NCBI GenBank assembly: GCA_030430205.1
Contig: JAUIGE010000010.1
Span: 62,001-126,000, forward strand
Origin: Bacteroidia bacterium
GTDB lineage: Bacteria > Bacteroidota > Bacteroidia > J057
Direction: 5' to 3'
Length of the DNA: 64,000 bases
Part shown: positions 23,148 through 39,462 of the stretch, piece after piece
Numbering within the stretch: position 1 is the stretch's first letter
Layout: each line of letters starts with the position of its first letter
Position numbers and translations under genes: made by a program
Notes under the pieces: generated by a model
Told to the model about the DNA's origin: nothing
Seen by the model: only the letters and a program-made list of their open reading frames with translations
The model's database searches: none

Positions 23148-24062
23148 ATGCATGTAGGTGTATCCATTCACTTCAAAGTTGAGGAGGCAATCAGCTACAC
23201 CTTGGCATATTTTGAAATATTCAGCCATCCACTCAGCCTGGATGAAATTGTTTTTTACGCCCCGATCTCCATTTCCCGCGAGGAAGTCAGCTCCAGCTTG
23301 TCCCGGATGCTGGAAGCGGGCAAGGTTTTTTCTCAAAATGGCTATTTTTCCCTCGCAGACCAGCCGGAGAATGTTCAAAAGCGTCAGCAACACAATGGGC
23401 TGGCAAAGGGAATCATGCCACAGGCCATCGCCAGTTCCCGGCTGATCCACAGATTTCCTTTTATCAAAGGCGTCTGCATCTCGGGCAGCCTTTCGAAAGA
23501 GGTCTTCATGGAGGAGGATGACATTGATTTTTTCATCATCACCGCCAAAAACAGAATATGGATTTCCCGGCTTTTGCTGAAAGCCTATAAATGGGTCTGG
23601 CTCAAAAACTCCCGCAAATACTTTTGCATCAACTATTTCATCTCGGAAAAGGACCTGGAGATCAAGGAAAAAAACCTTTTCACTGCCATCGAATTGGTCA
23701 CCCTCATCCCCCTGATGGACCCGCTTTTATTCGACCAACTCAAAAGGCAAAATGTCTGGATCAGCAGTTTTTTGCCCAATGGACAGTGGAAGGAAAATGA
23801 CTTTAGGCCTTTGGATAAACCGCTAATTTCCAGACTTTTAGAATTCTTGTCCTGGGGTCCTGTTGGAGATATGGCAGACTTGCTCATCATGAAGGGCATG
23901 AAATGGCGCAACCGGATGAAGTACAAACAGCTGGTCAGGCAGGCCGAATTTGACCACATGTTCAAATCTACCCGTACGGAGTCCAAAATCCATCCCCTCA
24001 ATATGTCGCGAAAAATTCAACTACTTCATCAGGAAAAGCTGGAAAAGCTGGGAATACAATGA
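23148..24062 (+). CDS. Nucleotidyltransferase-fold protein, start of radical SAM operon
   Basis: A 304-residue soluble protein. Residues about 15-60 look like a winged-helix or PHP-like N-terminal segment. The polymerase-beta type nucleotidyltransferase signature is present: G113-S114 followed by D125-x-D127 (CISGSLSK ... EEDDIDFFII). Such proteins occur next to radical SAM genes in several Bacteroidota. It could transfer a nucleotidyl group to a sugar, protein or small molecule; the acceptor is unknown. Its stop overlaps the next start (ATGA), so it heads the operon running to 29542. Confidence 0.8.
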   Translation: MHVGVSIHFKVEEAISYTLAYFEIFSHPLSLDEIVFYAPISISREEVSSSLSRMLEAGKVFSQNGYFSLADQPENVQKRQQHNGLAKGIMPQAIASSRLIHRFPFIKGVCISGSLSKEVFMEEDDIDFFIITAKNRIWISRLLLKAYKWVWLKNSRKYFCINYFISEKDLEIKEKNLFTAIELVTLIPLMDPLLFDQLKRQNVWISSFLPNGQWKENDFRPLDKPLISRLLEFLSWGPVGDMADLLIMKGMKWRNRMKYKQLVRQAEFDHMFKSTRTESKIHPLNMSRKIQLLHQEKLEKLGIQ

Positions 24063-25507
24063 AGATACTTTGTGCCAACGCATATTTTTACCAATACGAC
24101 AGGAAACAATGGGAAACCGCCCAGCCATATCCTCCTTTGGGGACTTTGTATGCTGTTTCGGTTTTGGAAAAAGCGGGTTTTGAAACTGCTTTTCACGACA
24201 ATAACCTGGTCGCACATCACAGCGAAATCTATCCCAGGATAGATGCTCAGCAGCCCCAGCTCCTCGTCCTCTACGATGACGGCTTCAACTACCTCACCAA
24301 AATGTGCCTCACCAATATGCGTGAGGCCGCTTTCGAAATATTGGCCTACGCCAAAGCCCGCGGCATCACGACTGTCTGCAACAGCTCCGACTCGACGGAT
24401 CATTACAAAGAGTACCATGCCCAGGGGGCAGATTATGTGATTCATGGAGAGGGCGAAAGGACTTTGCTGGAACTCTGCGAAGCCCTTCGTGATGGAAAAG
24501 AAACAGCTCATATTCAGGGCATTAGCTACAAAAAGGGAAAGGAAGTTTCCCTCTCGCCTGCCCGCCCCGTGCTGCGCAGCCTCGATGAGCTGCCCATGGC
24601 AGCCTGGGATCGGATCGACATCGATCCCTACCGCCGGATATGGATGAAAAAGCATGGCTTTTTTTCGCTCAATATCGCCACCACCCGTGGCTGTCCCTAC
24701 AAATGCAACTGGTGCGCCAAGCCCATCTACGGCAACCGCTACAACTCCCGCTCACCGGAGCGCGTCATGGACGAAATCGAGTACCTCGTCAGGCGCTTTG
24801 ATGTGCATTACTTCTGGATGTGTGATGACATCTTCGGTCTGAAACCCAACTGGGTGCAGCGCTTTCGCGACGAGAAGCAGAAGCGGGGCCTGGATTTTCA
24901 GTACAAAATCCAGTCTCGGGTGGATTTGATGCTCAAAGACGACAACCTCGATGCCCTGGTAGAAAGTGGCGCAGACATCGTCTGGGTGGGGGCCGAAAGC
25001 GGTTCGCAGAAGATACTCGATGCCATGGACAAAGGCACCCAGGTAGCGCAAATCTACGAAGCCAGCCGAAAGCTGAAAGCCCATGGCGCACGCATCGCCT
25101 TTTTCCTGCAATTTGGCTACCTGGGCGAGACCTGGCAGGACATCCAAAAGACCCTTCACATGGTCCTGGACCTGATGCCCGATGAGATCGGGATTTCGGT
25201 TTCCTACCCGCTCCCTGGCACAGGATTTTATGAAAAAGTAAAATCAGACCTGGACAAAAAAGCCAATTGGAAGGATTCAGATGACCTGGACCTGATGTTT
25301 CACAATACCTATCCGCCTGTCTTTTACAAAACACTTCATCGCTATGTCCACAATCGCTACCGCATCCAAAAAGGCTTGCTGACGATCTCTGGGAGGGTGA
25401 AAAGTTCTTTTCGGGAAAAGGGGAAAAATATGTTGCGGATGCTTTATCATCTGCCTCAGGCGGTGTATCACCGGATAATTTTGCAGCGATACGCAAAGCA
25501 TACATGA
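24059..25507 (+). CDS. B12-binding-domain radical SAM protein 1
   Basis: A 482-residue protein with an N-terminal Rossmann-like B12-binding domain (about 1-150; PYPPLGTLY, GADYVIHGEGE) and a radical SAM domain. The [4Fe-4S] cysteines are C212, C216 and C219 in RGCPYKCNWC. The AES-GSQ-I-L-DAMDKGT segment near 315 is typical of this class. Family members use cobalamin and SAM for methylation, ring contraction or other radical steps; this one's substrate is unknown. Overlaps both neighbours by 4 nt. Confidence 0.88.
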   Translation: MKILCANAYFYQYDRKQWETAQPYPPLGTLYAVSVLEKAGFETAFHDNNLVAHHSEIYPRIDAQQPQLLVLYDDGFNYLTKMCLTNMREAAFEILAYAKARGITTVCNSSDSTDHYKEYHAQGADYVIHGEGERTLLELCEALRDGKETAHIQGISYKKGKEVSLSPARPVLRSLDELPMAAWDRIDIDPYRRIWMKKHGFFSLNIATTRGCPYKCNWCAKPIYGNRYNSRSPERVMDEIEYLVRRFDVHYFWMCDDIFGLKPNWVQRFRDEKQKRGLDFQYKIQSRVDLMLKDDNLDALVESGADIVWVGAESGSQKILDAMDKGTQVAQIYEASRKLKAHGARIAFFLQFGYLGETWQDIQKTLHMVLDLMPDEIGISVSYPLPGTGFYEKVKSDLDKKANWKDSDDLDLMFHNTYPPVFYKTLHRYVHNRYRIQKGLLTISGRVKSSFREKGKNMLRMLYHLPQAVYHRIILQRYAKHT

Positions 25508-26313
25508 GTTCAGCATTTGACACAGTAGCCTCCAGCTACGATCAGGAATTTACTGATACGCCCATCGGCCGCGCACAGCGCGACAGAGTATGGCGCTACC
25601 TGCGCCAGCTGCTGGAGAAATATGAAAATGCGCGCATTTTGGAGCTCAACTGCGGCACAGGCGAGGACGCCTGCTTTTTGGCTGGCCTGGGCCATGAGGT
25701 GCTGGCGACAGACATTTCTACAGAAATGCTTAAGCAAACGCAGCAAAAGGCTGAAAAAGCGAAACTTCAGGATAAGATTCTGATAAAGCAGCTTGATCTG
25801 GCTGCGCCAGAGTTGGAGGGAGAAGCTCCCTTTGATGTGATCTTTTCGAATTTTGGGGGGCTGAATTGTTTGTCAGGGGAGGAGTTGAGGAGGCTTGCGG
25901 GTTTTTGCGAACTACATTTGAATGTTGGTGGAGCTTGTGTGTTTGTGGTGATGCCTCCGAAGACCTTGTTGGAAAAATACTATCGCTGGTGGAAGAATGA
26001 ACGGGAAGTCTATCTAGCCAGAGATTCCCATTGTCCCATACATGTGAGCCTGAGCAACAAGGAGATCGCAACCTATTTTCATTCGCCTGCGGAAATGGAA
26101 GCCTATTTTAGCCTGTATGAAAAGATAAAATCATTGGTTATAGGGTATATCCCTTCCTATTTCAATCAGATCAAAGGATTACCTATATTGATGATGGGAG
26201 AACATCTTGCGATCCTTTTTGGGATAGGTAAAAACAGATCTGATCACTATTTGATCCACTTTCAAAAGAAAGCCTCCGCAATGACAAAAGCTATAAAACA
26301 GAAGTATGATTAG
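25504..26313 (+). CDS. Class I SAM-dependent methyltransferase
   Basis: A 269-residue cytoplasmic methyltransferase. Motif I is ILELNCGTGEDACFLAGLG near residue 43, and the following DIS at about 70 is the SAM-ribose-binding acidic turn. It probably methylates a small molecule or glycan intermediate made by this operon. Base composition changes inside the gene: the first 300 nt resemble the GC-richer upstream genes, while the rest matches the AT-richer downstream block. Start overlaps the radical SAM stop (ATGA). Confidence 0.85.
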   Translation: MSSAFDTVASSYDQEFTDTPIGRAQRDRVWRYLRQLLEKYENARILELNCGTGEDACFLAGLGHEVLATDISTEMLKQTQQKAEKAKLQDKILIKQLDLAAPELEGEAPFDVIFSNFGGLNCLSGEELRRLAGFCELHLNVGGACVFVVMPPKTLLEKYYRWWKNEREVYLARDSHCPIHVSLSNKEIATYFHSPAEMEAYFSLYEKIKSLVIGYIPSYFNQIKGLPILMMGEHLAILFGIGKNRSDHYLIHFQKKASAMTKAIKQKYD

Positions 26314-27016
26314 AGAAATCAAAAACGGGCTTTCTGCATGGCGGCGTAGAAATAGATTTAAAAATTTCTACAGCCAATTTATCCAAGAGGGGGATTTATG
26401 TTTTGATATAGGAGCGAATGTAGGGAATAGAACAGGGATTTTTTTGAGCCTTGAAGCAAAAGTAATTGCCGTTGAACCGGTTGAAGAATCCTACAATATT
26501 TTGAAGCAAAAGTTTTCTGGAAATGAAAAAGCTAGCATACTCCCTGTTGCAATTGGGAGCAAACCTGAGGAGGGGGTCATTTACATTTCAAACTATTCTG
26601 AAGTCTGTACGCTAAGCCATCAGTTTATAGAAAAATACCAGGGGCAACATAAATATAATATAGAATGGCCTCACACCAGGAAAATACCAATTACTACTTT
26701 GAACCATCTTATCAGAGATTATGGAGTTCCGGCTTTCTGCAAAATAGATGTTGAGGGCTATGAAGCAGAAGTACTAGAAGGGTTATCTCAACCACTTAAG
26801 GCAATGAGTTTTGAATACAATAATAGACTAAAAAAGATCGCTCTGGAATGCATTGAAATCCTGTCAAAGTTTGATTCCTTAACCTTTAACTTTTCTCCAT
26901 ATGAAACAATGAAGTTCTCTTTGAAGACCTGGAAGACTCAGCCTGAGTTTTATCAATTCATAGAAGAACTGCCCATGGAGATCAAAACGGGCGATATTTA
27001 TGTAAAATATCTATAA
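26306..27016 (+). CDS. FkbM-family methyltransferase
   Basis: A 236-residue protein with FkbM motifs: CFDIGANVGNRTGIF near residue 31, AVEPVEES near 58 and KIDVEGYEAEVLEGL near 147-161. FkbM enzymes methylate hydroxyl groups, often on sugars in surface-glycan loci. The gene is clearly AT-rich: I count 22 G+C in 26461-26520, against 33 in 25021-25080 of the radical SAM gene upstream. It overlaps the previous gene by 8 nt and lies 11 nt before the next. Confidence 0.88.
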   Translation: MIREIKNGLSAWRRRNRFKNFYSQFIQEGDLCFDIGANVGNRTGIFLSLEAKVIAVEPVEESYNILKQKFSGNEKASILPVAIGSKPEEGVIYISNYSEVCTLSHQFIEKYQGQHKYNIEWPHTRKIPITTLNHLIRDYGVPAFCKIDVEGYEAEVLEGLSQPLKAMSFEYNNRLKKIALECIEILSKFDSLTFNFSPYETMKFSLKTWKTQPEFYQFIEELPMEIKTGDIYVKYL

Positions 27017-27027
27017 AATCAACATCA

Positions 27028-28416
27028 ATGAAAGTATTATTTACGCATGGATATTTTATATATGAAGATGAGAAAGAGCAAAAAATAATGAAGCCTTACC
27101 CACCTTTGGGGATTTTATATATTTCAGCATGGCTTGATAAATATGGAATTGATAACGAAATATTTGATACTACTTTTTCACAAAAAAGACTTCAGCAATC
27201 ATACCTCCTTAAAGAGAAACCTGAAATAATCGCCATCTACGTCAACCTCATGACCAAGGTCAATGTAATCGAGTTGATGCAGTATATTGGGCAACATTTG
27301 CCAGAAAGCAAGATCATCTTAGGTGGGCCTGATGTTAGGTATAATCTGGCTGATTATTTGGATGCAGGTGCTGAGGTTGTAGTCATTGGAGAGGGAGAAG
27401 AAACGATGCGTGAATTGGTTGAGGCAATTCAATCGAATCAAGGACTCCAAGAAGTTGATGGAATAGCCTTCATGCAATCAGGTTCTCTGGTACAAACCCA
27501 AGAACGCAGCCGTATTCGCCCAGTGGACGACCTTCCTTTTCCCAATCGCCACAAAATAGATATTCAAAAATATCTCGATACCTGGAAGACCTACCATGGC
27601 ATGCAGTCGATGACTGTGAGTACACAACGGGGTTGCCCATATACCTGCACATGGTGCAGCACAGCGGTCTATGGCCAAAGTTATCGACGAAGAAGCCCCG
27701 CTAAAGTCGTTGAAGAACTGAAGCATCTAAAGGAAACATACCATCCCGATAGCGTCTGGTTTGTCGATGACGTCTTTACGGTTAGTCATAAATGGTTGAC
27801 TGGTTTTGCTGCGGAAGTGCAAAAGCAGGATGCTATCATTCCCTTTGAATGTATCAGCAGAGCTGATCGCCTCAATGAAGAGGTGATAGACCTACTGAAA
27901 GCGGCAGGCTGCTTTCGGATATGGATAGGCGCCGAAAGCGGCTCACAAAAAATCATAGACCTGATGGATAGGCGAGTCGATGTGAATCAAGTGCGCGATA
28001 TGATTCGCCTGACGCGCCAGAAAGGCATGGAGGCTGGAACCTTTATCATGCTGGGCTACCCTGGGGAGACAGAAGCGGATATTAAAGAGACCGTTAAACA
28101 CCTCAAAGAATCTAATCCGGATCATTTTACCATCACCATTGCTTACCCTATCAAAGGGACAAGGCTCTATGGAGAGGTAGAAGCCATACAAACCCAAAGC
28201 CTTGACTGGACCAAAACGACGGACCGGGATCGGGATTTTGAGCGGACCTATTCGCGGGAATATTACAATTATGCTACCCGTTGGGTGACCAATGAGGTGA
28301 ATTGGCATAAGTATAAAATGTCCAAACAATGGCTGAAACCTTCAGCCCTCAAAACAAAACTCAAATCTTGGGTATTACGTGGAATGATGTATTATGAAAA
28401 ACAGGCTGCCTCCTAA
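27028..28416 (+). CDS. B12-binding-domain radical SAM protein 2
   Basis: A 462-residue relative of the protein at 24059. It has the N-terminal B12-binding-like domain (KPYPPLGILYISAWL, IILGGPDVRYN, VVIGEGEE) and a radical SAM domain with C203, C207 and C210 in RGCPYTCTWC. IWIGAESGSQKIIDLMD near 295 matches radical SAM protein 1, so the two are probably paralogs with different substrates. The first third is AT-rich, the rest less so. The next gene starts within its last 23 nt. Confidence 0.88.
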   Translation: MKVLFTHGYFIYEDEKEQKIMKPYPPLGILYISAWLDKYGIDNEIFDTTFSQKRLQQSYLLKEKPEIIAIYVNLMTKVNVIELMQYIGQHLPESKIILGGPDVRYNLADYLDAGAEVVVIGEGEETMRELVEAIQSNQGLQEVDGIAFMQSGSLVQTQERSRIRPVDDLPFPNRHKIDIQKYLDTWKTYHGMQSMTVSTQRGCPYTCTWCSTAVYGQSYRRRSPAKVVEELKHLKETYHPDSVWFVDDVFTVSHKWLTGFAAEVQKQDAIIPFECISRADRLNEEVIDLLKAAGCFRIWIGAESGSQKIIDLMDRRVDVNQVRDMIRLTRQKGMEAGTFIMLGYPGETEADIKETVKHLKESNPDHFTITIAYPIKGTRLYGEVEAIQTQSLDWTKTTDRDRDFERTYSREYYNYATRWVTNEVNWHKYKMSKQWLKPSALKTKLKSWVLRGMMYYEKQAAS

Positions 28417-29542
28417 GCAATTTCTTTTTACAAAAGTGATTCCTATCCTATTTTGTTTTGTGATGGTATTTGGCCTTTTCCTGGCTTTTACACAGGAGAA
28501 AAGCCATCACCAAATCAGACTCAAATGGTATCAGACCCATAAGAAGGACTCTCCTGAAAACCATCTGGCAGCCATCAAATGGTGTATGGCATACTTAGGT
28601 TCGACCATTACTTCTGATACAAGCCTGAAAGGCATTTCCCTAGAAGACTCTGTAATCGTTCTGGACATAGAAAAGCTCGGTTTTAAGCCCAAAACCGTAG
28701 ATTATTTGAGCTACCTCAATCGGAAATGGAAAAAGACAGAAGCGTATAAAGCAAAGAACTCGATAGATTTAGGAAGGTATATAAGCCTCACATTGGGGTA
28801 TGCTACCAATTATTTTACGCTGGTTGACATCCCCAAAAAATTAAAGAAATACAAAAGTAAATTCACCTATGATCCCATGGAGGGGAGTGTCGACAACTCA
28901 AGTGTTTCATTGGTACGGCGGATTATATCTTTTTCCAATAACCATATTCAAAACCGTGAATTCTTTTTAGCGACTGAGACGGATTCCATTACTCATAACG
29001 TATTGGAATTTGAAACGCTTGAAGTTATGGAGAATGGTCTCCCGAAATTTGGCATATACACTGCCTCTGGTAAACGTAAAGAAGCCGGTACGCTGGCTTT
29101 CTCAAATGCTGGCAAACCTGCCAAATGCCTTTGGTGTCATGAAAGCCAAATCCTGCCTTTGTTTCGAAAACAAAGAGATTGGGAAGGTTTTTTGAGCTAT
29201 GAAGACCTCAGGGATTCATTGAAGATGCGAGTTGAAAGGCAGCGTGCTCATCAGGATACTTTATGGCATGATCGACATTTCCTAAAAAGATGGCACCATG
29301 AAAAAATGGAGATATGTTATATCTCCTTTATGGAGCCATCGGCGCAGCGATTGGCTCAGGAATGGCGGAAACCACTTGTGGAAGTGAAACTTATGTTGGA
29401 AGGAATAGAGACGCATCGCCATCATGAATTTGATTTTTTGGGGGATCTGTATCACCGAAAGGATGTGGATGGATTAGGCCCCTGGAAGGTGGTGAAGGCT
29501 CCAGAAAGTGTGAGAGAGGAGAAAATTACGGGGGGACACTAA
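28394..29542 (+). CDS. Membrane-anchored protein with a CxxCH motif, unknown function
   Basis: A 382-residue protein with one N-terminal membrane segment (about 12-32) and a large periplasmic part. A single c-type haem-binding motif, C245-L-W-C248-H249, lies in a Gly/Lys-rich turn. Many His residues follow (HHEK, HRHHEF), some of which could bind metal. I recognise no family. Being the last gene of the radical SAM operon, with a start inside the upstream gene, it may carry out a redox step outside the cytoplasm; this is only inference. It meets the next, convergent gene with a 4-nt overlap of stop codons. Confidence 0.75.
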   Translation: MKNRLPPKQFLFTKVIPILFCFVMVFGLFLAFTQEKSHHQIRLKWYQTHKKDSPENHLAAIKWCMAYLGSTITSDTSLKGISLEDSVIVLDIEKLGFKPKTVDYLSYLNRKWKKTEAYKAKNSIDLGRYISLTLGYATNYFTLVDIPKKLKKYKSKFTYDPMEGSVDNSSVSLVRRIISFSNNHIQNREFFLATETDSITHNVLEFETLEVMENGLPKFGIYTASGKRKEAGTLAFSNAGKPAKCLWCHESQILPLFRKQRDWEGFLSYEDLRDSLKMRVERQRAHQDTLWHDRHFLKRWHHEKMEICYISFMEPSAQRLAQEWRKPLVEVKLMLEGIETHRHHEFDFLGDLYHRKDVDGLGPWKVVKAPESVREEKITGGH

Positions 29543-30366
29543 TGACCTGATTTTACGCCCCACTTTTCACGAAAACTCTGTATTTCTTCATGTGTATAAA
29601 AATGCTGACAATAGGTAGAATCAAGCATTCGGTTTAGATAAGCTGTGGGAAGCACCAACTGTTCTTTAAATGATTGATAAAGGGCAGCATATTTTTTTTC
29701 TGCACCTACGTTAAAATTAACCAACCGAAAATCTGGGATTCCCAGAAAAGTTTGGACAATTAGTGCTTTTTCGGAATCAGCCAAATCGGTACGAAGGATA
29801 AGCAAGTCTATATTTTCCTTTTGGAATATTTTATATCCCTTTTCTGTATCAAAAGGTTGGGCATAAACATCTATACCAATTGTCGGCTTTAATTCTTCCT
29901 CAAACCACAATAGTGGGAAATCGTGATTGAGTTTATTCAAAAAGGGTTGCCTCAACATTTCCATGTCTCCTGTAAAAGCGGCGCTATCTACTCCCACATG
30001 ATATCGAAACACTTCAAAAAAAGCAGATACATTGCGTGAAATAGGATCCCGTACCAAAGAAATAATTTTCACATTTTTTCGCTTCCGAACTTTTCGGTTA
30101 AATATAAGCCCTCCCAGACTTTTCGCATCTGGCCAAAGGCCTTTCTCCCTGCATAAATCATAGGCCCGATCTATTTTTTCCTGATTCATGGTATGAATAT
30201 GAAAAACGGATCTTTTGAGTTGATTTTTCACTGATCTGTAAATAGACATGGAGCCTACCTTTGCCATGGTATAGATGACAACGGGCGTTTTGCCACCAGA
30301 TAATTCAACATAACCTTTGATGAAACGCAGGCTTCCCAATATATGATAGCGAAAAAAAGGATTCAT
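29539..30366 (-). CDS. Sulfotransferase-like capsular polysaccharide synthesis protein
   Basis: A 275-residue protein resembling the putative capsular polysaccharide synthesis family (PF10364) and other PAPS-dependent sulfotransferases. The 5'-phosphosulfate loop is visible as TMAKVGSMS (33-41), and the 3'-phosphate site as VRDPISRNVSAFFE (105-118). It would place sulfate on a glycan or lipid, using PAPS in the cytoplasm. It lies opposite to the radical SAM operon with overlapping stops, inside the AT-rich block. Only sequence motifs support this; no PAPS synthesis gene is in the window. Confidence 0.78.
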   Translation of the reverse strand: MNPFFRYHILGSLRFIKGYVELSGGKTPVVIYTMAKVGSMSIYRSVKNQLKRSVFHIHTMNQEKIDRAYDLCREKGLWPDAKSLGGLIFNRKVRKRKNVKIISLVRDPISRNVSAFFEVFRYHVGVDSAAFTGDMEMLRQPFLNKLNHDFPLLWFEEELKPTIGIDVYAQPFDTEKGYKIFQKENIDLLILRTDLADSEKALIVQTFLGIPDFRLVNFNVGAEKKYAALYQSFKEQLVLPTAYLNRMLDSTYCQHFYTHEEIQSFREKWGVKSGH

Positions 30367-30490
30367 TTTTTGTGTTATCGAAGGCTATATTTCTTTAATT
30401 TTCTCAACTATTAGTCTTTTATTGATAGCATCTAGGAAAGAAAAGAATCAAATCATCCAAATCAAAAACAAGCCAGAATGTTTATAGAAG

Positions 30491-31690
30491 ATGGGGGTAC
30501 AAATTAAAAAAGCATTTTCTATAAAATCCCTGAGAAGACTCAACCTGATCGCGTGGAATACGGCCTTTAATGTTGTTATTCCTGTATTTAGCCTCATCTT
30601 TTCTGCCATTATCATTCGGATACACACCCCTGCACTGTGGGGAGAGATCACGGCCTATGTACTCATGATGATGGTCACTAATCGTTTGATCTCATGGGGA
30701 CATAAAGAATTTTTGCTCAAAACCTTTAGTATTCGACCCAAAGATATCGCTGCTATTTGGCAGAAAAATGTATTCAGCCGCGCCTTCCTGGCAGTCATCG
30801 CATCATTGGGGCTACTGCTCTTTTTTAGAGAATTCGAAAGTTGGGCAAGCCTCACATTTTTTATTGTCGGGATCTTCTTTTATAGGGCCTTTGATCCCGT
30901 TACGATATACCTTAAGCAGTTTAAAGCTGCTCTGATAATTGAAGTAATTGGGTTTTTGGGGGTACTCGCTGGCATATTGATTTACCAACAAGATCTCACA
31001 GCCTTATTGTATTTGAGGATGTTAGCGGCCTCTTATATGATCAAATCTCTGATCTATATTTACCTATATCGAAAGGACCTTTTACCGGCAAATTATTTTG
31101 CTTTTAATCTACTCCAGTTGAGGCAGGCGTCACCGTATTTGATTTTGACCTTTATTGGCCTGTTTGGCAATCAAATCAATTCCTATAGCCTTGCGATTCT
31201 GGGAGACGATGACCAGCTGGGGAGATTTCAAGTGCTGTTTATCCTTTTTATGTATGTGAGAAATGGCGCATATTTCATCCTTCAACCCTTTTTGAAAAAC
31301 CTATTGCGGGTAAATAAAAAGACGCACACCGCTATCATCCGGAAAATTTTTCCTTTAGGCATTTTTCTTTCTGTGCTGGGAGGGGTGGCCATTGCCATTT
31401 TATTCCCTATCGTGTATGCTTTTGGCTTTAGCTGGGAGATATATGCTGTGGGCGTTCTATATGCGATTCCCTACTATCTTTTTGCAGTTAAAAGTATTAA
31501 CCTGATCAAAAATAGTCAGGAGAGACTATTGGTGATAATCGGACTCATTAGTATCCTGACCAACCTGGTTTTGGATGTTATCCTGATTCCTTCCATGGGA
31601 ATAACAGGTGCCTTGATTGCGGCTGCGGTTGGGCAGTGGGTAATCCTGCTTTGTTACAAAATGATTGACTGGAAAAATGAACGCACTTAA
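30491..31690 (+). CDS. Oligosaccharide flippase-like membrane protein (Wzx/MVF type)
   Basis: A 399-residue polytopic membrane protein with about twelve helices, resembling polysaccharide biosynthesis (MOP superfamily) flippases, which move lipid-linked glycans across the inner membrane. Sequence is typical but lacks strong motifs: TAFNVVIPVFSLIFSAIIIR near 20-40 and a final LVLDVILIPSMGITGALIAA segment (about 359-380), which is the usual flippase end. It is shorter than many Wzx proteins (about 420-480). It belongs with the surrounding glycan genes by context. Confidence 0.8.
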   Translation: MGVQIKKAFSIKSLRRLNLIAWNTAFNVVIPVFSLIFSAIIIRIHTPALWGEITAYVLMMMVTNRLISWGHKEFLLKTFSIRPKDIAAIWQKNVFSRAFLAVIASLGLLLFFREFESWASLTFFIVGIFFYRAFDPVTIYLKQFKAALIIEVIGFLGVLAGILIYQQDLTALLYLRMLAASYMIKSLIYIYLYRKDLLPANYFAFNLLQLRQASPYLILTFIGLFGNQINSYSLAILGDDDQLGRFQVLFILFMYVRNGAYFILQPFLKNLLRVNKKTHTAIIRKIFPLGIFLSVLGGVAIAILFPIVYAFGFSWEIYAVGVLYAIPYYLFAVKSINLIKNSQERLLVIIGLISILTNLVLDVILIPSMGITGALIAAAVGQWVILLCYKMIDWKNERT

Positions 31691-31749
31691 CCCATATTGC
31701 CCAAAAATTCAACGGTTATGTTGAACCTATGGCTGTCTGCTCATAAGGC

Positions 31750-33333
31750 TTATAGGGGGATTTTTTTCAGCGTAAAAACGCCACGCCGGGAATGAAAATC
31801 GCTTAAAAAGTAAATCTCAAGATCATTGATCAGCACGGGTTTCTTTTTGAGCCCAGGATCAAAGGTCATTTGTTTACCCTGATAGTATATCTGACCTTCC
31901 CGGATCGAACAAGCCGTTGTATCAAAAGAGTGAATTGGAATGGAAGTTTTGACTTCCTCTATTTTTCGCCCCATAGCCGTATATGCCAACAAACCGTCTT
32001 GTTGGCCATAATCCATAATCATAAAATAGTTTTTCTCTGCCAGAACATAGCCAGCCTGATCTTCTTTTGGCGGGGAAGCAATGCTCCATAGAAAAATAGC
32101 TAAAAACAATACCAGAACAGTCAGGCTTCTCTGCTGGATTTCTGATCGGAAAAGATAAAAAAAGCATCCTCCCAATGCCCAGAATAGCCATAATCGCAAA
32201 AAGCGCAAAATGATCGGACTATCCGCCAGCCAATGAATCGGGAAATTACAAAGCAGGAGGAGTAATCCTAAAAAGAGGAATTTTCCTCTCCTTCTTTCTG
32301 CCGAATCCAGAAACTCAAAAGCAGGGATAATCCATAAAACCTGTGCATAAGAGGCCGATCTGCTCTGTAAAAGCATGAATGCTACCGTCCATATCGCTAA
32401 TATGCGAAGAAGTCTGTCGCGATAAGCCCAACTGAGTTGGAGTGCGAGGCCCAAAATAATTGCTTTATAGATCGTTATGCCAAAGGTATACAAGCGAGGT
32501 AGATCAATCAGCGCATTAGGATTGTAATAAGCATCATAGACAAAGATGGTTTTGACTAATGCATCAAAGGATTGACTTCGGGTAGCAAAGCCAACTGTTG
32601 AATTATTTTGGATGGCCTGTGGCCATATTTCTGTCAGGTAAACGCGCCAAAACTCACTGCCACTTACCCAAATGCTGATTGCAAATAGCGCCAGGGTGAC
32701 AACTATCGCTTTTCCGATGAGCCGCCAACGCTGTTGGAATAGCAGCGGCAAACCCATAATTACCGGAAATATTTTTAACAAAAAGGCAATGCTTATCCCC
32801 AAAGCTGCCAGCCACTCTTTGCCATGCTGAATGGCCCAATATGCTGGCAGCATAGCAGCAAGAACGATAAAATAAAGCTGCCCAAACAGAATATGATTTC
32901 TGAGGGGGATAAAAAAAAACAAGGGAATCAACAGGATAAACCAGGAATGGTTTTTCGCATAAAGTTGATGAAGCAAGCCTAAGCTAAAAATAAAACAGAT
33001 GATGCTGAAAACGTTAAATATGTTTTTGGCCAGGTGCGCATCTTCTATATAAGTAAGGGGTAAAAATGCGGTGCTTAAAAAGGGGCTATTGAGGTAAAAA
33101 TCTGCTAAAATTTCGGGATAGCCTTGGCTATGGATGTATTGATTAAAAGAGTATATATCAAATAAAACAGATGCTGGCGGAATCCCTTCTTTTACGAGTA
33201 AGGCAGGGAAGTATGAATTTGAAAAATCATGCAAATGAAAAGAGAGAGAAGTGTAGCAGAAATAGGAACAAAGGCAGATTAGCGGCACAAAAAAGTATAC
33301 TTCATACCTTTGTTTTTTGATTTGAATTGACAT
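31750..33333 (-). CDS. GT87-type (DUF2029) membrane glycosyltransferase
   Basis: A 527-residue protein with about ten membrane helices, resembling GT87 polyprenyl-phosphate-sugar transferases (GT-C fold). The first periplasmic loop holds FHLHDFSNSYFPALLVKEG (about 32-50), with the acidic residues GT-C enzymes use for catalysis, and the PLTYIEDA segment follows. GT-C enzymes add a sugar from a lipid donor on the outer side of the inner membrane. The last 100 residues form a small periplasmic beta domain. Family assignment is by overall pattern. Confidence 0.78.
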   Translation of the reverse strand: MSIQIKKQRYEVYFFVPLICLCSYFCYTSLSFHLHDFSNSYFPALLVKEGIPPASVLFDIYSFNQYIHSQGYPEILADFYLNSPFLSTAFLPLTYIEDAHLAKNIFNVFSIICFIFSLGLLHQLYAKNHSWFILLIPLFFFIPLRNHILFGQLYFIVLAAMLPAYWAIQHGKEWLAALGISIAFLLKIFPVIMGLPLLFQQRWRLIGKAIVVTLALFAISIWVSGSEFWRVYLTEIWPQAIQNNSTVGFATRSQSFDALVKTIFVYDAYYNPNALIDLPRLYTFGITIYKAIILGLALQLSWAYRDRLLRILAIWTVAFMLLQSRSASYAQVLWIIPAFEFLDSAERRRGKFLFLGLLLLLCNFPIHWLADSPIILRFLRLWLFWALGGCFFYLFRSEIQQRSLTVLVLFLAIFLWSIASPPKEDQAGYVLAEKNYFMIMDYGQQDGLLAYTAMGRKIEEVKTSIPIHSFDTTACSIREGQIYYQGKQMTFDPGLKKKPVLINDLEIYFLSDFHSRRGVFTLKKIPL

Positions 33334-33381
33334 GATATATGCGGAAAAGAATAATTTTATTCCTTTGTCAAACTAATAATT

Positions 33382-34416
33382 ATGAGAGTGAGGAACAAAA
33401 AGGTGACGGGATGGCTTCTTTCTGTAGGCATTTTTGCCATCGGTGCAGGGATTATCTATCAAATGTTTGTTAATGATTCTCCTAATGAAGCAATCAGCAA
33501 AAGAAGTATTCGCCTGAGAGAGTGGCGACCTAATTGGTCCGCATCCTATACCCCCCAGCTAGAGCAACTTGATCATAGCGATGCATTGGTACAAAAAGCT
33601 TATCCTGTAAGGATAGATTCAGAAGGCTTTATGGTTTACAAACCTGTTCATACACCAACCGATTACTCCCTGGTATTTTTAGGTGGAAGTACCACAGAAT
33701 GCCTTTATGTAGAAGATTCGCTTCGCTTCCCATACCTTACAGCACAGATGCTGGAAAATCAGACAGGGAAAATATTCAATAGCTATAATGGAGCTATGGG
33801 AGGAAATAACAGCATGCATTCCATTAATTTATTATTAAACAAAGTAATCCCCATGCAACCCCATGTTGTAATCATGATGCACAATGTCAATGACTGGAAT
33901 GTATTGATCAAAGAGAAAGATTACTGGAATAACAATCCCTCCAAATCTATGATTATTGATCCTCATGGAGGTAAAAAAACAGAAAAAGACGAATGGAAAC
34001 ATATCAGGGGAAAGAAGGTAGAATATGAGTTATCTGAGGTAATTGAAAAATTTAAGCAAGCGCAACATCTTTTTATTGACATATGCCAACGGTATGAAAT
34101 AGAGCCTGTATTGATGACCCAGGCTAGCAGGTTTACGGACCAGATAGAAGACAAAATCCACCATGGGATAATTAACCATGGCAAAGACCTCGGCTTTACC
34201 TATCAAGTGGCTAAAACACTTCAGGACACCTTCAATATGACAATCAGAACAGTCGCTCGAGAACGATCTGTTCTCTTAATCGATTTGGACGCCCATATCC
34301 CGAAAACCAGTGATTATATGTATGATATTGTACATTTTCATAAAGGTGGAACTAAGGCTGCGGCAGAATTCATTGCAGCAGCTCTGAAAAAACATTTTCA
34401 GTGGTTAGGGAAATAA
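33382..34416 (+). CDS. SGNH/GDSL-type hydrolase, membrane anchored
   Basis: A 344-residue protein with an N-terminal membrane helix (about 9-29) and a periplasmic SGNH-like domain. The block I Ser is S103 in GGSTTE, block II Gly is in NGAMGG (about 136-141), block III Asn is in HNVND (167-171), and the D..H pair is in DIVHFHKGG near the end. In glycan loci such proteins usually add or remove acetyl groups. It stands alone on its strand between GT87 and radical SAM protein 3. Confidence 0.82.
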   Translation: MRVRNKKVTGWLLSVGIFAIGAGIIYQMFVNDSPNEAISKRSIRLREWRPNWSASYTPQLEQLDHSDALVQKAYPVRIDSEGFMVYKPVHTPTDYSLVFLGGSTTECLYVEDSLRFPYLTAQMLENQTGKIFNSYNGAMGGNNSMHSINLLLNKVIPMQPHVVIMMHNVNDWNVLIKEKDYWNNNPSKSMIIDPHGGKKTEKDEWKHIRGKKVEYELSEVIEKFKQAQHLFIDICQRYEIEPVLMTQASRFTDQIEDKIHHGIINHGKDLGFTYQVAKTLQDTFNMTIRTVARERSVLLIDLDAHIPKTSDYMYDIVHFHKGGTKAAAEFIAAALKKHFQWLGK

Positions 34417-34499
34417 AAAAGAAATCATCTTTTTGTATGATAGAAGAGCGTTCAGGTCTTTTGATCCAAAAACTGTAGTTAAATACTTTCCCCCTTTCC

Positions 34500-36020
34500 A
34501 TGTCTAACAAAGTACTCCTCTTTAACCCTCGGGCCGTTTCCAGTAAAAATTTCCGCATCCCAAACTCCATCCTGCAAGTCGCAGCAGCTATTGACGGAAA
34601 ATACGAGTGGGTCATCGTAGATGGAAACCAGGAAAAGGATCCCTGGCAAAAAATTGAAGCACATCTCCAAACGGGAGAATTCAAATACTTCGGTTGTACC
34701 GCCATGCCCGGTCCACAATTGCGTCAGGCGATTCCCATCACAAAGCGAATCAGACAAGCATTTCCTGCTGTGATAAATATCTGGGGAGGCTATTTCGCTT
34801 CGAATCAATATCAGGTTGTGTTGGAAAGTGGCTATGTAGACTTTGTGATCAATGGTCCTGGAGATCAGGCTTTTCCAGCTTTGCTGGATGCCCTGGAGCA
34901 GGGAGGTGACTATACTATCATAAACAACCTGATTTATAAAAATGAAGCCAGGAAACTGATCAAAACCTATAAAGCTACCCTCGTTAATCAGGACAGCCTG
35001 GCGGACTTGCCATATGCAAAACTGAATGCATTTTATCCTATAAAATCCTACCTGCGGCCGACGCATCTGGGACGTGAGACCATTGCCTATCATTCCAGTC
35101 TGGGATGTCCGTTTACCTGCTCTTTTTGTGCGGTAGTACCGATCTATGAGGCACGCTGGAAAGCAAAATCTGCCCAAAAAGTCTATACAGAGATCAAATT
35201 CATCAAAAACAATTATGGTGGAGATGCCATCGAATTTCACGATAATAACTTCTTCGTTTCCGAAAAAAGAACGGTTGAATTTTCCAAATTGATAGCACCT
35301 GAAAACATGAGCTGGTGGGGAGAGGGCCGTATCGATACAATCGATAAATACACAGATGAGTCCCTCAAAATCATGAAGGAGTCGGGCCTGAAGATGATCT
35401 TCTGTGGGGCGGAAAGTGGGAATGACGAGATTTTAAAAAGTGTAGATAAAGGCGGAAAGCAGACAGGGGATCAGATCAAAGCCTTTGCCGAGCGCATGGG
35501 AAAAGTGGGGATTATTCCTGAATACTCATTTGTATTGGGATTCCCGGGACCGGACAAAAAGACGGTTATGCGCCATATAACGGAAGAAATTCGCTTTATC
35601 AAAGAAGTGAAAGCCATCAACCCGGCAGTTGAAATTATCATTTACCTCTACAGCCCAGTGCCGACAGAAGGGTCAGAATTGTACCAACAAATCACAGAGG
35701 CAGGTTTTGCTTTTCCCGAAAAGCTGGAAGACTGGCTTTCCCCCAGCTGGGAAAACTTCGATCTCCGCAAAAATCCCCTCACTCCCTGGCTGACGCCAGC
35801 GATGGTAGACAAAGTCAAAAACTTTGAAACGGTCATGCATGCGCGCTTCCCAACGGCTACCGACCCCAAAATCACCCCTCTTCAGCGAATAGTTATAAAT
35901 AAATTATCAGCTTTTCGTTATAGGTTCAATTTTTTCCACTATCCTTATGAGCTGAAAGCTTTGCAAAAGTTTTGGCTTCGCTATCGTCAACCTGAAATAG
36001 AGGGCTTCGCATCTGAATAA
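34500..36020 (+). CDS. B12-binding-domain radical SAM protein 3
   Basis: A 506-residue protein with an N-terminal B12-binding-like domain (about 1-150) and a radical SAM core with C203, C207 and C210 in LGCPFTCSFC. FCGAESGNDEILKSVDKG near 300 marks the same class as the two radical SAM proteins upstream, but the sequence is more distant. A C-terminal region of about 110 residues has no recognised domain. The next gene, a methyltransferase, begins at the base after the stop codon, so the pair is co-translated. Confidence 0.88.
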   Translation: MSNKVLLFNPRAVSSKNFRIPNSILQVAAAIDGKYEWVIVDGNQEKDPWQKIEAHLQTGEFKYFGCTAMPGPQLRQAIPITKRIRQAFPAVINIWGGYFASNQYQVVLESGYVDFVINGPGDQAFPALLDALEQGGDYTIINNLIYKNEARKLIKTYKATLVNQDSLADLPYAKLNAFYPIKSYLRPTHLGRETIAYHSSLGCPFTCSFCAVVPIYEARWKAKSAQKVYTEIKFIKNNYGGDAIEFHDNNFFVSEKRTVEFSKLIAPENMSWWGEGRIDTIDKYTDESLKIMKESGLKMIFCGAESGNDEILKSVDKGGKQTGDQIKAFAERMGKVGIIPEYSFVLGFPGPDKKTVMRHITEEIRFIKEVKAINPAVEIIIYLYSPVPTEGSELYQQITEAGFAFPEKLEDWLSPSWENFDLRKNPLTPWLTPAMVDKVKNFETVMHARFPTATDPKITPLQRIVINKLSAFRYRFNFFHYPYELKALQKFWLRYRQPEIEGFASE

Positions 36021-36683
36021 ATGTTTTACAACCTACCTACAACTTTTTCTCCCTTGCTTTATCGCATGATAAAATGGTATTACCGCAAGCCGCGGTGGAT
36101 ACAGAAAAGAGACCTGCGCCTGCGCCTGGAGCCCACGGTTTTTCATCCCGGACTATACCTGTCTACCGACATTTTGCTAGACCATGTGATGTCTCTCGAC
36201 TTGATGCACAAGCGCGTGCTTGAGCTGGGTTGTGGCAGCGGCTTCATCAGCCTGTATCTGGCAGAGCATCGGGAAACCCACGCTTACGCCTCCGATATCA
36301 ACCAGCAGGCATTAGATGCCCTGGAGCAAAATGCCGATACCAATGACCTGGCCATAGAGCTGTTTCATTCAGATTTATTTGAAGAAATCCCTTTTATAGA
36401 GCTGGACTACATCCTGATCAATCCGCCATATTACCAGCGGGAAGCTACCGCTGTGGATGAATATGCTTTTTTTGCAGGAAAAGACCTGGCCTATTTCCAG
36501 GCGCTTTTTTACCAAATAACAGACTACCTGAAGGCAGGAACAAAGGTTTTGATGGTACTTTCGAAAAATGCACCCCTGGCTGAAATAAAAGACAAGGCAA
36601 GGAAAAACCATGTCAGGCTGGAGGAAGTTTTGCAGACAAAGCGAAAAAGGGAAACATTTTTCATTTACTCCCTGAGCTGTTAA
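36021..36683 (+). CDS. Class I methyltransferase with NPPY motif
   Basis: A 220-residue methyltransferase. Motif I is VLELGCGSGFISLYLAEH near residue 66, and the amide/amine-methylating motif is INPPYYQ near 132. NPPY is typical of enzymes that methylate nitrogen of Gln, adenine or guanine, but this protein is smaller than PrmC and lacks its N-terminal domain. It directly follows radical SAM protein 3, suggesting a shared pathway. Its last 23 nt overlap the convergent O-antigen-ligase-like gene. Confidence 0.83.
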   Translation: MFYNLPTTFSPLLYRMIKWYYRKPRWIQKRDLRLRLEPTVFHPGLYLSTDILLDHVMSLDLMHKRVLELGCGSGFISLYLAEHRETHAYASDINQQALDALEQNADTNDLAIELFHSDLFEEIPFIELDYILINPPYYQREATAVDEYAFFAGKDLAYFQALFYQITDYLKAGTKVLMVLSKNAPLAEIKDKARKNHVRLEEVLQTKRKRETFFIYSLSC

Positions 36684-38532
36684 ACACAGCTTGCAACAGC
36701 TCAAATTGAGCCTGCTGCCGACATAGTATATTCCACATATCGAGTTCCTCCTGATGGGTGGATTCCCATATTTCCTCCCGATATAAGCGCTCAATCACCG
36801 GAACGATGCTCACCTGATAGACCGCAATGGCTTTGTCAAAAGCCTGCTCATCCTGCGTCTCCAGGGAGGATTTGGCCAGCCCCAGGGCAGCCGGGACATA
36901 GTCGTTATAGATTTGCAGGCTTTGCTCAAAAGCCCGCACCGCAAGCGGAAATTTTCCCGTTTGCCTGTACTTTTCCCCCAATTGAAACCAGTTCCGGTAG
37001 TCATAGGGACAGCTTGCTGCCACCTCCTCCAGCAATTTGAGCGACAAAGCTTTTTTGTTCAGTTCCCAAATCCGGAGCGCTTTGAGGTGAGAAAGGTGCT
37101 TTTTTTCATAAAAATCAAAAATCCCGGGATGATGCATTTCCTTCAGGCTTTTGAAAGCTGCCTGTGGCTTGTTGTTGGCAAGCTGGATGCTGTATCTCTG
37201 GTACTGAAGCTCTTTTGACAATAGGAAAAAAGACCATGAGCACGCAAGCATGCCCAGCAAAACCAGGGGTATCGCAAAGCGAAATCTGTGCACAGACTGC
37301 ATCTCTTTCGCATAAAAAAGGGCTACCGCTGCCAGCCAAAGCCATTGGGCGGGAGCAAGGGCTTTGTTGGGATTATAGGCCACGCCATATACCGAGGCGA
37401 TCAGCAAAAAACTGATCAGGACAGCAGAGAGGTGCCTGCCGAACAGGCTTCCGGGCGCTTTGCGCAAAAGCCGCACAAGCGGCAGACAAAGCAGCAGCAA
37501 CACCAGCCCCAGGCCCAATAGGCCCAGTTCGGCCCCCGTCTCCAGGGGGAGACTATGTGCATTGGGCACATCTTTGACCGCGTCCAGTTGGCTGCCGCCA
37601 AACTTCATATAGGCAGTATGCCAGTTTCCGCTACCGATCCCCCCAAGGGGATTTTCGGCCAGGAGCCGCTGGGAACTCTCCCAGATCACAAGTCTGGCAT
37701 CACTGCCTCCCGCATCTGCGGACCGCAGAGGATTGTAGATATACCAAAATCTTTCCGGGTCATCTGCCAGCCCCAGCGTAAGCAAAATGAGGGTGATCAG
37801 CAGCATCGGAAGCCCGATGAGCAGTCGCTTAGTATGCCACTCCTGGCGGTAAAGGACAGCATAATAAATCGCCAAAACGGCGAAGATGAGCAAAGCCAGC
37901 CTGCTTCCAATGAGAATGAGGAACAGGCTGTAAGGGATCAAAATGGCGAGAACCCATTTGTTGCGGGGCTGCTCATGCAACAGAGCAATCAGGGGAATAG
38001 AGATTAGCAGGATCGAAATGATGTCATTTTTGTGGTAGGAAAAGTAGGCCCGAAGTTCGGCGCTATACCTCAGGGTTAGCTGAAAATGGCCTTCTGATTC
38101 GAATAATTCCTGGTAAAAAAAATAGCCCGGAAAGAGCACATTCACCAGCAGGATGGTGAGCAACAGGCGTTGCCAAAACCACTTGCTGAAGTGCTTCAGA
38201 TCCAGCGAGCGAATGTTGAGATACAACACAAAAAGCGAAAGCCAGTAAAAGCTGCTTTTCCATACCTCCGCCACATGATCCGCCCACAGGGCAGACAAAA
38301 AATGCCAGCCCACAAAAGCGGCAAACAGCCAGCTAAAGGCATCCGAAGGAAAAAACAGGCGCTTTTTGCGCCAGAGGATGAGGCTGAGTATCAGCGTCCC
38401 GACAGCCAGCATCGGCTTTTTATAGATCATCAGGGCCGCGCCCAGTTTCAGGGGAAACAGCACGCAGACGATGCCAAGCATGGCTCCGAGGAGCCACTCT
38501 TCCAGATGGATTTGTTTGAGTTTTGACAGCAT
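36661..38532 (-). CDS. O-antigen ligase-like membrane protein with C-terminal TPR region
   Basis: A 623-residue protein. About twelve membrane helices fill residues 10-420. The large periplasmic loop carries the Wzy_C/WaaL-type segment ENPLGGIGSGNWHTAY near 289-304, followed by NAHSLPLETGAELGLLG (about 318-334), which holds the His used by O-antigen ligases. The soluble C-terminal 180 residues look like TPR repeats (about 500-575). Proteins of this build join glycan chains to lipid or protein acceptors outside the inner membrane. As the last gene of the glycan region it fits a transfer or polymerisation step. Confidence 0.85.
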   Translation of the reverse strand: MLSKLKQIHLEEWLLGAMLGIVCVLFPLKLGAALMIYKKPMLAVGTLILSLILWRKKRLFFPSDAFSWLFAAFVGWHFLSALWADHVAEVWKSSFYWLSLFVLYLNIRSLDLKHFSKWFWQRLLLTILLVNVLFPGYFFYQELFESEGHFQLTLRYSAELRAYFSYHKNDIISILLISIPLIALLHEQPRNKWVLAILIPYSLFLILIGSRLALLIFAVLAIYYAVLYRQEWHTKRLLIGLPMLLITLILLTLGLADDPERFWYIYNPLRSADAGGSDARLVIWESSQRLLAENPLGGIGSGNWHTAYMKFGGSQLDAVKDVPNAHSLPLETGAELGLLGLGLVLLLLCLPLVRLLRKAPGSLFGRHLSAVLISFLLIASVYGVAYNPNKALAPAQWLWLAAVALFYAKEMQSVHRFRFAIPLVLLGMLACSWSFFLLSKELQYQRYSIQLANNKPQAAFKSLKEMHHPGIFDFYEKKHLSHLKALRIWELNKKALSLKLLEEVAASCPYDYRNWFQLGEKYRQTGKFPLAVRAFEQSLQIYNDYVPAALGLAKSSLETQDEQAFDKAIAVYQVSIVPVIERLYREEIWESTHQEELDMWNILCRQQAQFELLQAVFNSSGSK

Positions 38533-38901: not shown

Positions 38902-39462
38902 ATGAATGAATCTTTGCTTGATACGGACATATTGTCCTACTATTTGAGAGGGGATAAAGACGTAGAAGAACAAGTCAAAAAATATCTTTCCCAATATTCA
39001 GTCCTTAATATTTCCCTTATTACATGTTTTGAAGTACTGAGCGGTCTTGCTTATAAAGAGGCTTACAGGCAAATGGAAGACTATGAAAAGTTTCTTTTGG
39101 ATTGTAATGTTTTCAATATTTCAGATTCATCCATCCGGCTCTCAGCTACTGCAGCTGGATTTTTAAGACGAAATGGAATAACAATTGGTAATTCAGATTT
39201 ATTAATTGCTGGTATCGCTCTTGAAAATGATTTCACCTTGATTACCAATAATGTAAAGCATTTTGAGCAGATACCAGATTTGAAAATTGAGAATTGGAAA
39301 AGGCCCATCAATAACTTTCTCGACTCTTTTTTGTATTTTTTATTGCAATATCACAGTCCGCCCAAAAAATCCCTCCCCATTTCCACCTTTCACCCAATAC
39401 ATGCCCGGACTCAGCTCCGAGAGCCTCATGAGGCTTTTATCCAGCCCGATTTTCGTAGGTAG
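38902..39462 (+). CDS. vapC: VapC-like PIN-domain toxin with read-through C-terminus
   Basis: A PIN-domain ribonuclease of the VapC type. Active-site residues: D7 (and D9) in LLDTDI, E44 in TCFEVLSG, D99 in GNSDLLIAG, and N116-N117 in LITNNVKHF. VapC toxins cleave RNA such as tRNA when free of antitoxin. Usual length is about 130-140 residues; this frame is 186. Homology should end near residue 136 (KRPI), and the last 40 residues are read from the opposite strand of the neighbouring T9SS gene (39340 onward). The native stop codon therefore seems lost. Confidence 0.85.
   Translation: MNESLLDTDILSYYLRGDKDVEEQVKKYLSQYSVLNISLITCFEVLSGLAYKEAYRQMEDYEKFLLDCNVFNISDSSIRLSATAAGFLRRNGITIGNSDLLIAGIALENDFTLITNNVKHFEQIPDLKIENWKRPINNFLDSFLYFLLQYHSPPKKSLPISTFHPIHARTQLREPHEAFIQPDFRR

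Follow-up and report, generated by a model that had tools for sequence, protein, structure and literature searches.

A nucleotidyltransferase and a B12-type radical SAM protein at the core of a gene cluster conserved in Bacteroidota and Ignavibacteriota

The locus and its genes

The locus under study spans positions 23148-36683 of a 64,000-nucleotide stretch of DNA (the window) from a Bacteroidia genome (assembly GCA_030430205.1, contig JAUIGE010000010.1; genome labelled G000). It encodes three B12-type radical S-adenosylmethionine (SAM) proteins (RS1, RS2, and RS3), three methyltransferases, a nucleotidyltransferase (NT), a protein with a single CxxCH motif, and NKWYS, flippase-like, GT87, and SGNH-like proteins. 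Comparison with other genomes shows it to be one instance of a cluster that is conserved in Bacteroidota and Ignavibacteriota and has the NT-RS1 pair at its base. The open reading frames (ORFs) listed below were confirmed at the coordinates given in an earlier reading of this DNA (the original prediction), and the ORFs together with Pfam and NCBIfam agree with its count and placement of three B12-type radical SAM proteins and three methyltransferases.

23148..24062, plus strand: NT, with a winged helix (about residues 9-73) and a pol-beta-type nucleotidyltransferase domain; partner of RS1 genome-wide
24059..25507, plus strand: RS1, B12-type radical SAM protein; motif GCPYKCNWCAKP; Radical_SAM 77.6 bits
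25504..26313, plus strand: MT1, class I SAM methyltransferase, directly after RS1
26306..27016, plus strand: FkbM-type methyltransferase, accessory; TIGR01444 84.1 bits (cut-off 37.7)
27028..28416, plus strand: RS2, B12-type radical SAM protein; Radical_SAM 88.8 bits and B12-binding 50.1 bits, both over cut-off
28394..29542, plus strand: CxxCH protein, with an apparent signal anchor, one CxxCH motif, and an FMEPS stretch
29539..30366, minus strand: NKWYS protein; PF10364 97 bits; putative capsular polysaccharide synthesis, sulfotransferase-like by eye
30491..31690, plus strand: flippase-like membrane protein (family F7, with relatives in 18 further loci)
31750..33333, minus strand: GT87 glycosyltransferase; PF09594 85.3 bits; relatives in 22 other loci
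33382..34416, plus strand: SGNH/GDSL hydrolase-like protein; PF13472 31.1 bits, slightly below the cut-off of 32.9
34500..36020, plus strand: RS3, B12-type radical SAM protein; Radical_SAM over cut-off, B12-binding 36.5 bits (cut-off 32.1)
36021..36683, plus strand: MT3, HemK/PrmC-like methyltransferase with an NPPY motif, partner of RS3; MTS 69.4 bits

The first six genes (23148-29542) had been described as overlapping. This holds for four of the five junctions, with overlaps of 4, 4, 8, and 23 bases; the fifth is a gap of 11 bases. No B12 riboswitch was found in the window at the gathering threshold.

Co-occurrence and gene order across genomes

The NT and RS1 genes occur together at the level of whole genomes. 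Strong NT matches (E at most 1.1e-19) were present in 27 of 395 genomes of the phylum, out of 31 matches in total, the four weak ones lying between 1.2e-9 and 3.6e-7. A search for RS1 with a profile of 21 rows at an E value of 1e-100 returned the same 27 genomes. RS3 was found in 17 genomes, all of them among these 27, and in 16 it lies no more than about 18 kb from RS1 on the same contig; in the remaining genome (G310) it is on another contig. The rows of the RS1 and RS3 profiles had been taken near NT, so the test was not blind, although matches to genomes lacking NT were still possible. The CxxCH family was found in two of the 395 genomes, G000 and G310, and lies within the cluster in both; in G310 it stands directly after RS2, with RS1 immediately before. 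Within the taxonomic order of the window, NT occurs in 4 of 22 genomes and RS3 in 3 of 22, and the other genome of the same genus has no NT.

With RS1 as the only query, a scan of named genomes, in which the best 80 of 562 matches were kept and which therefore leans toward close relatives of the window, reached Saprospiraceae, Flavobacteriaceae (Kordia, Aquimarina, Winogradskyella, and Flavobacterium), Chitinophagaceae (Niastella), Cytophagales, Mucilaginibacter, Ignavibacteriales, and others. NT lies nearby in 71 of these 80 loci, MT1 in 73, RS2 in 51, and RS3 in 18, as counted in the fetched DNA, which is truncated for many of the loci. Nine loci showed no NT. A search of eight of the corresponding genomes located NT on another contig in seven; the link between NT and RS1 is therefore genome-wide and not merely positional.

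Gene order was compared across 109 loci, the window included. NT directly precedes RS1 on the same strand in 81 of the 92 loci that hold both, with overlapping genes in 58, and RS1 and MT1 are adjacent on the same strand in 84 of the 92 loci in which both occur. The contiguous order NT-RS1-MT1 recurs in 68 loci, NT-RS1-MT1-RS2 in 37, and NT-RS1-MT1-RS2-CxxCH in 7. All 14 loci with a CxxCH gene also hold NT, RS1, MT1, and RS2, and 12 of them carry a member of the GT87 family. Some genes were missed by the ORF caller, for example NT in loci L156 and L058. The original prediction had proposed that conservation of the six-gene order be examined, and the result is mixed: the NT-RS1-MT1-RS2 series recurs, with CxxCH next in some loci, whereas the exact order including FkbM was seen in the window only. 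Relatives of the FkbM gene occur in five other loci, at other places, and a position between MT1 and RS2 was likewise seen in the window alone. In Kordia algicida (stretches L164 and L165), genes that are contiguous in other Kordia are spread over about 50 kb.

Such figures bear on the alternative of a chance run of unrelated neighbouring glycan, radical SAM, and methyltransferase genes. The singular placement of FkbM would suit it, as would the unconserved flanks of the window, where a MATE gene has no relative and the O-antigen ligase (Wzy_C protein; 36661-38532, minus strand) has relatives in 2 of the 108 other loci. Strong NT and RS1 matches nonetheless fall in the same 27 genomes, and the order is kept in tens of loci though their NT proteins are just 21-41% identical to that of the window. 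Chance assembly was rejected on co-occurrence and gene order, and we assign it a practically negligible probability. The MATE and O-antigen ligase genes were themselves rejected as members of the unit, since they are not conserved with it; the ligase, a kind of gene that the original prediction mentions, also lies outside the region. Its broader proposal, that these genes act as one functional unit, and which it had exposed to the possibility that relatives would not share the order, withstood the comparison in both Bacteroidota and Ignavibacteriota.

Protein families of the cluster

Pfam nucleotidyltransferase matches to the window NT are weak (about 17 bits, below cut-off). The assignment as a nucleotidyltransferase is nevertheless upheld because a relative in locus L034 exceeds the NTP_transf_2 cut-off, the AlphaFold model is confident (mean predicted local distance difference test score, pLDDT, of 94.9), and residues of the catalytic G-S ... 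D-x-D motif are invariant. In an alignment of 67 sequences of less than 70% identity, chosen from 87 of suitable length and including the window, G113, D125, and D127 are present in 67 of 67 and S112 in 64. The NT model gave no Foldseek match at 0.001; VIA matched it to kanamycin nucleotidyltransferase (1kny) with a middling score (Z 7.8, 108 residues aligned), and winged helices were also matched with middling scores.

Among the radical SAM proteins, the Pfam Radical_SAM model is over cut-off in RS1, RS2, and RS3 of the window, and the CxxxCxxC cluster motif is kept in 101 of 102 RS1, 55 of 55 RS2, and 30 of 30 RS3 sequences. The B12 domain ascribed to all three proteins is borne out for RS2 and RS3, which score over cut-off; for RS1 the match of 21.2 bits stays below the cut-off of 32.1. 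Cobalamin-dependent methylation or rearrangement is the predicted activity. None of the NCBIfam cut-offs listed was reached by RS1 (25 of 31 families listed), RS2 (25 of 41), or RS3 (21 of 21), and the highest BchE score, that of RS2, is 170.8 bits against a cut-off of 481. Placement of RS1-RS3 in a named NCBIfam family was rejected, as no listed family's cut-off was attained. The nearest relatives of RS1 with solved structures are 9ccb, AprD4, OxsB, CysS, and TokK.

As judged from their sequences, RS1, RS2, and RS3 are separate subfamilies. A quick maximum-likelihood tree, built from 91 of the 185 rows and carrying a long-branch warning, has a single branch that sets each of them apart from the rest (support 98, 85, and 100). 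Louvain clustering left RS1 in small scattered groups; radical SAM genes were relabelled as RS1, RS2, or RS3 according to which window protein was their best BLAST match (identity of 37% or more, alignments longer than 300 residues), and the tree later agreed. The RS1 tree mostly tracks taxonomic order, with 9 changes against a minimum of 5 and a shuffled mean of 27.6, and places the window RS1 with Saprospiraceae, so that the window probably stems from a Saprospiraceae-like genome. This pattern suits an old locus, inherited mainly vertically and often lost, whose outer genes would have been exchanged. An RS1 from a metagenome-assembled genome labelled Thermoanaerobaculia (Acidobacteriota; L082) is nested in Saprospiraceae sequences, either as a result of transfer or because the contig was mis-binned. 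In ten loci the cluster includes an additional radical SAM protein, of the SPASM type (family F23; L039 5374-6429 and relatives).

Radical SAM C-methyltransferases may also act on short precursors in ribosomal peptide (RiPP) clusters. For such a reading speak the secondary similarity of RS1-RS3 to the ApyD and rSAM_ocin families and a short GG-leader-like peptide with several cysteines in three Kordia loci (L094 5891-6043, L095 5735-5887, and L099 3572-3724, all on the minus strand). This peptide, however, lies several kb upstream of NT and occurs in Kordia only; moreover, the largest family among the 2253 small ORFs of the 109 loci spans five loci, and the 14 largest families do not follow the core. 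A RiPP cluster is thus highly improbable, and it was rejected as no conserved small ORF accompanies the core (109 loci, at BLAST sensitivity, for the 14 largest families).

The methyltransferases differ in their motifs and partners. The pattern [DNS]PP[YFW] is present in all 16 members of the MT3 family and in none of 94 MT1 or 31 F4 proteins, and MT3 directly follows RS3 in 14 loci, the window included. NPPY-type motifs are typical of methyltransferases that act on planar nitrogen, such as HemK and PrmC. The MT3 motif suggests that RS3 and MT3 act on a unit that probably contains an amide or ring amine. F4, an alternative methyltransferase, stands directly after RS2 in 13 loci and in none of the 14 CxxCH loci.

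All 14 members of the CxxCH family share a single CxxCH and the FMEPS stretch, and nine have a lipobox-like pattern, which fits a predicted periplasmic monohaem protein. The window member has no Pfam match and its relatives only chance-level ones, with no cytochrome family or fold among them. Its model (pLDDT 82.7) had no PDB match by Foldseek at 0.001 and none by sequence, a missing structural match that does not prove a new fold.

Glycan neighbourhood and proposed pathway

Genes of glycan type concentrate on one side of the core. In 58 loci, family models counted 86 glycosyltransferase-type genes among 374 downstream of the core versus 19 among 354 upstream, 40 versus 4 methyltransferases, and 25 versus 8 exporters. 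By locus, such genes are found downstream versus upstream in 42 versus 10 (glycosyltransferase-type), 26 versus 4 (methyltransferases), and 25 versus 8 (exporters). Random samples give a similar picture. Among 75 of 330 downstream non-core genes (63 loci), GT87 was matched six times, Glycos_transf_1 six, Glycos_transf_2 four, and methyltransferase models up to eight times each. In a sample of 75 of 321 upstream genes, the families were of various housekeeping types; one Bac_transf and one DegT were present, and no GT87, Glycos_transf_1/2, or methyltransferase models among the 25 of its 118 families listed.

For several accessory families, names given by eye were followed by a Pfam check of representatives, which identified F16 and F26 as group-1 glycosyltransferases, F8, F17, F34, and F38 as group-2 glycosyltransferases, F9 as an ABC transporter, and F14 as PMT_2. 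F17 resembles polyprenyl-phosphate-sugar synthases (AglJ and PpgS), with scores far below their cut-offs, and adjoins GT87 in 5 of the 14 CxxCH loci. The NKWYS and SGNH-like genes have relatives in four and eight other loci, respectively. The gene at 30491, which the original prediction had called a flippase, is here termed flippase-like only, because Polysacc_synt matched weakly in 1 of 18 members of family F7; the window gene itself has no Pfam match at 0.01. Other families stand beside the cluster in relatives of the window. These include an initiating sugar transferase (F36; Bac_transf 183.7 bits; L097 14672-15439 and relatives), beside or near NT in six loci, the window not among them; a DeoD-like, purine-nucleoside-phosphorylase-like protein (F37; L113 17513-18268) in six loci; and a deaminase-like protein resembling aminofutalosine-deaminase amidohydrolases (F13; L058 550-1713) in 14. 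The F37 and F13 products may clear 5'-deoxyadenosine, the by-product of radical SAM chemistry.

Taken together, the likely product of the cluster is an exported molecule that contains sugar and is heavily methylated. The interpretation that we favour, and hold to be somewhat more probable than improbable, is a modular Bacteroidota/Ignavibacteriota pathway to an exported lipid-linked glycoconjugate with an unusual carbon skeleton. The unusual surface glycan or lipid of the original prediction is partly supported: its glycan role rests on the gene neighbourhood, in which glycosyltransferases, methyltransferases, and exporters are concentrated downstream, whereas the core of some relatives lies away from such genes.

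Several observations weigh against this interpretation. The Pfam matches of 23148-36683 include no sugar-nucleotide gene and no initiating sugar transferase; nor is a polymerase among them. The family models used for the downstream and upstream counts derive from families that recur in the same loci, which biases them toward the denser side, and one family counted as a glycosyltransferase by eye (F39) has no Pfam match. In fifteen of the 58 loci, the 9 kb downstream contain neither a glycosyltransferase nor an exporter. Six of the fifteen have them elsewhere: three (L097, L124, and L125) hold such genes upstream and one (L133) slightly past 9 kb, while L128 and Kordia algicida (L094) have RS2, RS3, MT3, glycosyltransferase, and flippase-like genes about 10-50 kb away. 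In several genomes of the Saprospirales clade, NT, RS1, and RS3 each have a contig of their own, and the family models find almost no glycan genes in the DNA fetched around NT and RS3. One genome (G420, locus L101) has RS1, and the genome search found no NT. Finally, the winged helix of NT could point to regulation instead of catalysis.

The same dispersal lends some weight to a different role, in which the NT-RS1-MT1 core modifies transfer RNA, ribosomal RNA, a protein, or a membrane lipid and its glycan neighbours merely reflect a variable genome region. Locus L135, whose core has no glycan-type genes in the fetched DNA, agrees with this role, as do the winged helix of NT, a domain frequent in nucleic-acid binders, and the similarity of MT3 to HemK/PrmC protein methyltransferases. 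We consider it improbable: the downstream side of the core is several times richer in glycosyltransferase, methyltransferase, and exporter genes than the upstream side, distant genera share accessory families, and patchy presence would be odd for a modifier of translation.

Patchiness (27 of the 395 genomes; within the order, 4 of 22) would suit a small secreted metabolite, aminoglycoside- or nucleoside-like, made by NT, the three radical SAM proteins, and methyltransferases, glycosylated by the glycosyltransferases, and exported by flippase-like or ABC proteins. Kanamycin nucleotidyltransferase is the best nucleotidyltransferase match listed for the NT domain, albeit at a middling Z, and AprD4, OxsB, CysS, and TokK, which we take to be antibiotic enzymes, are among the nearest solved relatives of the radical SAM proteins; the recurring F37 and F13 genes also suit such a product. 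This alternative seems rather unlikely, though less so than modification of a macromolecule or lipid. No antibiotic-type scaffold genes occur among the 25 of 63 downstream families listed, and GT87 and the polyprenyl-phosphate-sugar-synthase-like genes indicate a lipid carrier. Antibiotic clusters are also expected to show less vertical inheritance than the RS1 tree, which largely tracks taxonomic orders.

For the exported glycoconjugate, we infer each chemical step, the carrier, and the product from the gene families, their order, co-occurrence, and neighbourhood. NT would attach a nucleotide to a small molecule, such as a sugar or cyclitol, at one of its hydroxyl or phosphate groups. RS1 would then read this nucleotide handle and C-methylate or rearrange an unreactive carbon, after which MT1 would methylate another position. 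Further changes might be introduced by RS2, and by RS3 together with the putative N-methyltransferase MT3, so that the product likely carries an amide or other planar nitrogen. Glycosyltransferases, including GT87, could build on a polyprenyl carrier with, in relatives, the polyprenyl-phosphate-sugar-synthase-like protein. The lipid-carrier step is proposed because of GT87, which presumably takes polyprenyl-phosphate-linked donors, and of F17, which adjoins it in some of the CxxCH loci. Export would fall to the flippase-like protein, or to an ABC transporter in other loci; the NKWYS and SGNH proteins may decorate the exported product, and the CxxCH protein would work in the periplasm.

The idea of a nucleotidyl handle is based on the fold and motif of NT, on the fact that NT is paired with RS1, and on Fom3 as a precedent. 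Fom3, of the Fom1/Fom3 system of fosfomycin synthesis, is a B12 radical SAM enzyme that C-methylates a cytidylylated substrate (PMC8158854). A nucleotidylated substrate followed by B12 radical SAM C-methylation parallels the proposed NT-RS1 scheme; the Fom substrate is, however, a phosphonate, and no phosphonate gene is among the Pfam matches of the unit. The nucleotidyltransferase of fosfomycin synthesis is also of another kind than NT.

Other known systems share parts of the set. In hopanoid cyclitol ether synthesis, a lipid-linked sugar is acted on by a glycosyltransferase and, at a subsequent step, by a radical SAM enzyme (PMC12583986); no nucleotidyltransferase is named for this HpnI-HpnK-HpnJ pathway. 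HpnJ is the best-scoring NCBIfam model for RS3, but RS3 reaches 117, RS1 126, and RS2 142 bits against a cut-off of 578. In G000, no SQHop_cyclase_N match is over cut-off in a search with this N-terminal domain only, one reaching 25.2 of 26.2 bits in a frame of 2125 residues. With no cyclase match over cut-off and the HpnJ cut-off unmet, a hopanoid cyclitol ether was rejected.

In aminoglycoside synthesis, GenK, GenD1, and AprD4 are radical SAM enzymes that act on sugar or cyclitol carbons. AprD4 is one of the nearest solved relatives of RS1; still, the AprD4 model, with its cut-off of 500 bits, gives RS1-RS3 scores of 52-87 bits, and no aminoglycoside scaffold gene is among the unit's Pfam matches. 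Wzx/Wzy-type polysaccharide loci and Bacteroidota O-glycosylation loci resemble the cluster in their flippase-like, glycosyltransferase, GT87, and capsule-type NKWYS genes, as well as in the F36 transferase near NT in six other loci. Unlike Wzx/Wzy-type loci, the window unit has no initiating transferase and no conserved polymerase or ligase. To our knowledge, the NT-RS1 core is not part of either kind of locus. It is this core that could make the locus a new kind; otherwise it would be a surface-glycan-type locus with radical SAM tailoring.

More tentatively, and as a proposal that we regard as doubtful, the cluster may represent a previously undescribed class of glycoconjugate pathway in which a sugar or cyclitol, tagged by the winged-helix NT, has its skeleton methylated or re-formed by up to three B12 radical SAM enzymes before lipid-linked export. 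If true, the product would have a carbohydrate skeleton not yet seen in bacterial glycans, and NT-RS1 would be the first case of a nucleotidyltransferase and a B12 radical SAM enzyme paired specifically for surface glycans. A search of the open-access literature found no description of such a cluster, in line with the original prediction that no described pathway has this gene set, a weak absence given that most subscription papers lie outside the search. Uncharacterised members of the cobalamin radical SAM family far outnumber characterised ones (PMC8992657). Across the phylum, the cluster links three unnamed B12-type radical SAM subfamilies, an unnamed NT family, and a CxxCH family for which no relative is recognised. 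Its conserved partner set and the strains that carry it (Kordia, Aquimarina, Winogradskyella, Niastella, and Flavobacterium) make the substrate findable, and its identity would show by what route bacteria common in the sea and in soil produce some of their surface or secreted chemistry.

Elsewhere in the window, two minus-strand genes, at 8748-10175 and 46436-48064, encode proteins of 475 and 542 residues with no Pfam match at 0.001. Far from the cluster, positions 1674-1718 (plus strand) match the Acido-Lenti-1 RNA with 44.3 bits against a gathering score of 37. Near the cluster, a PIN-domain protein is encoded at 38902-39462 on the plus strand (45 bits).

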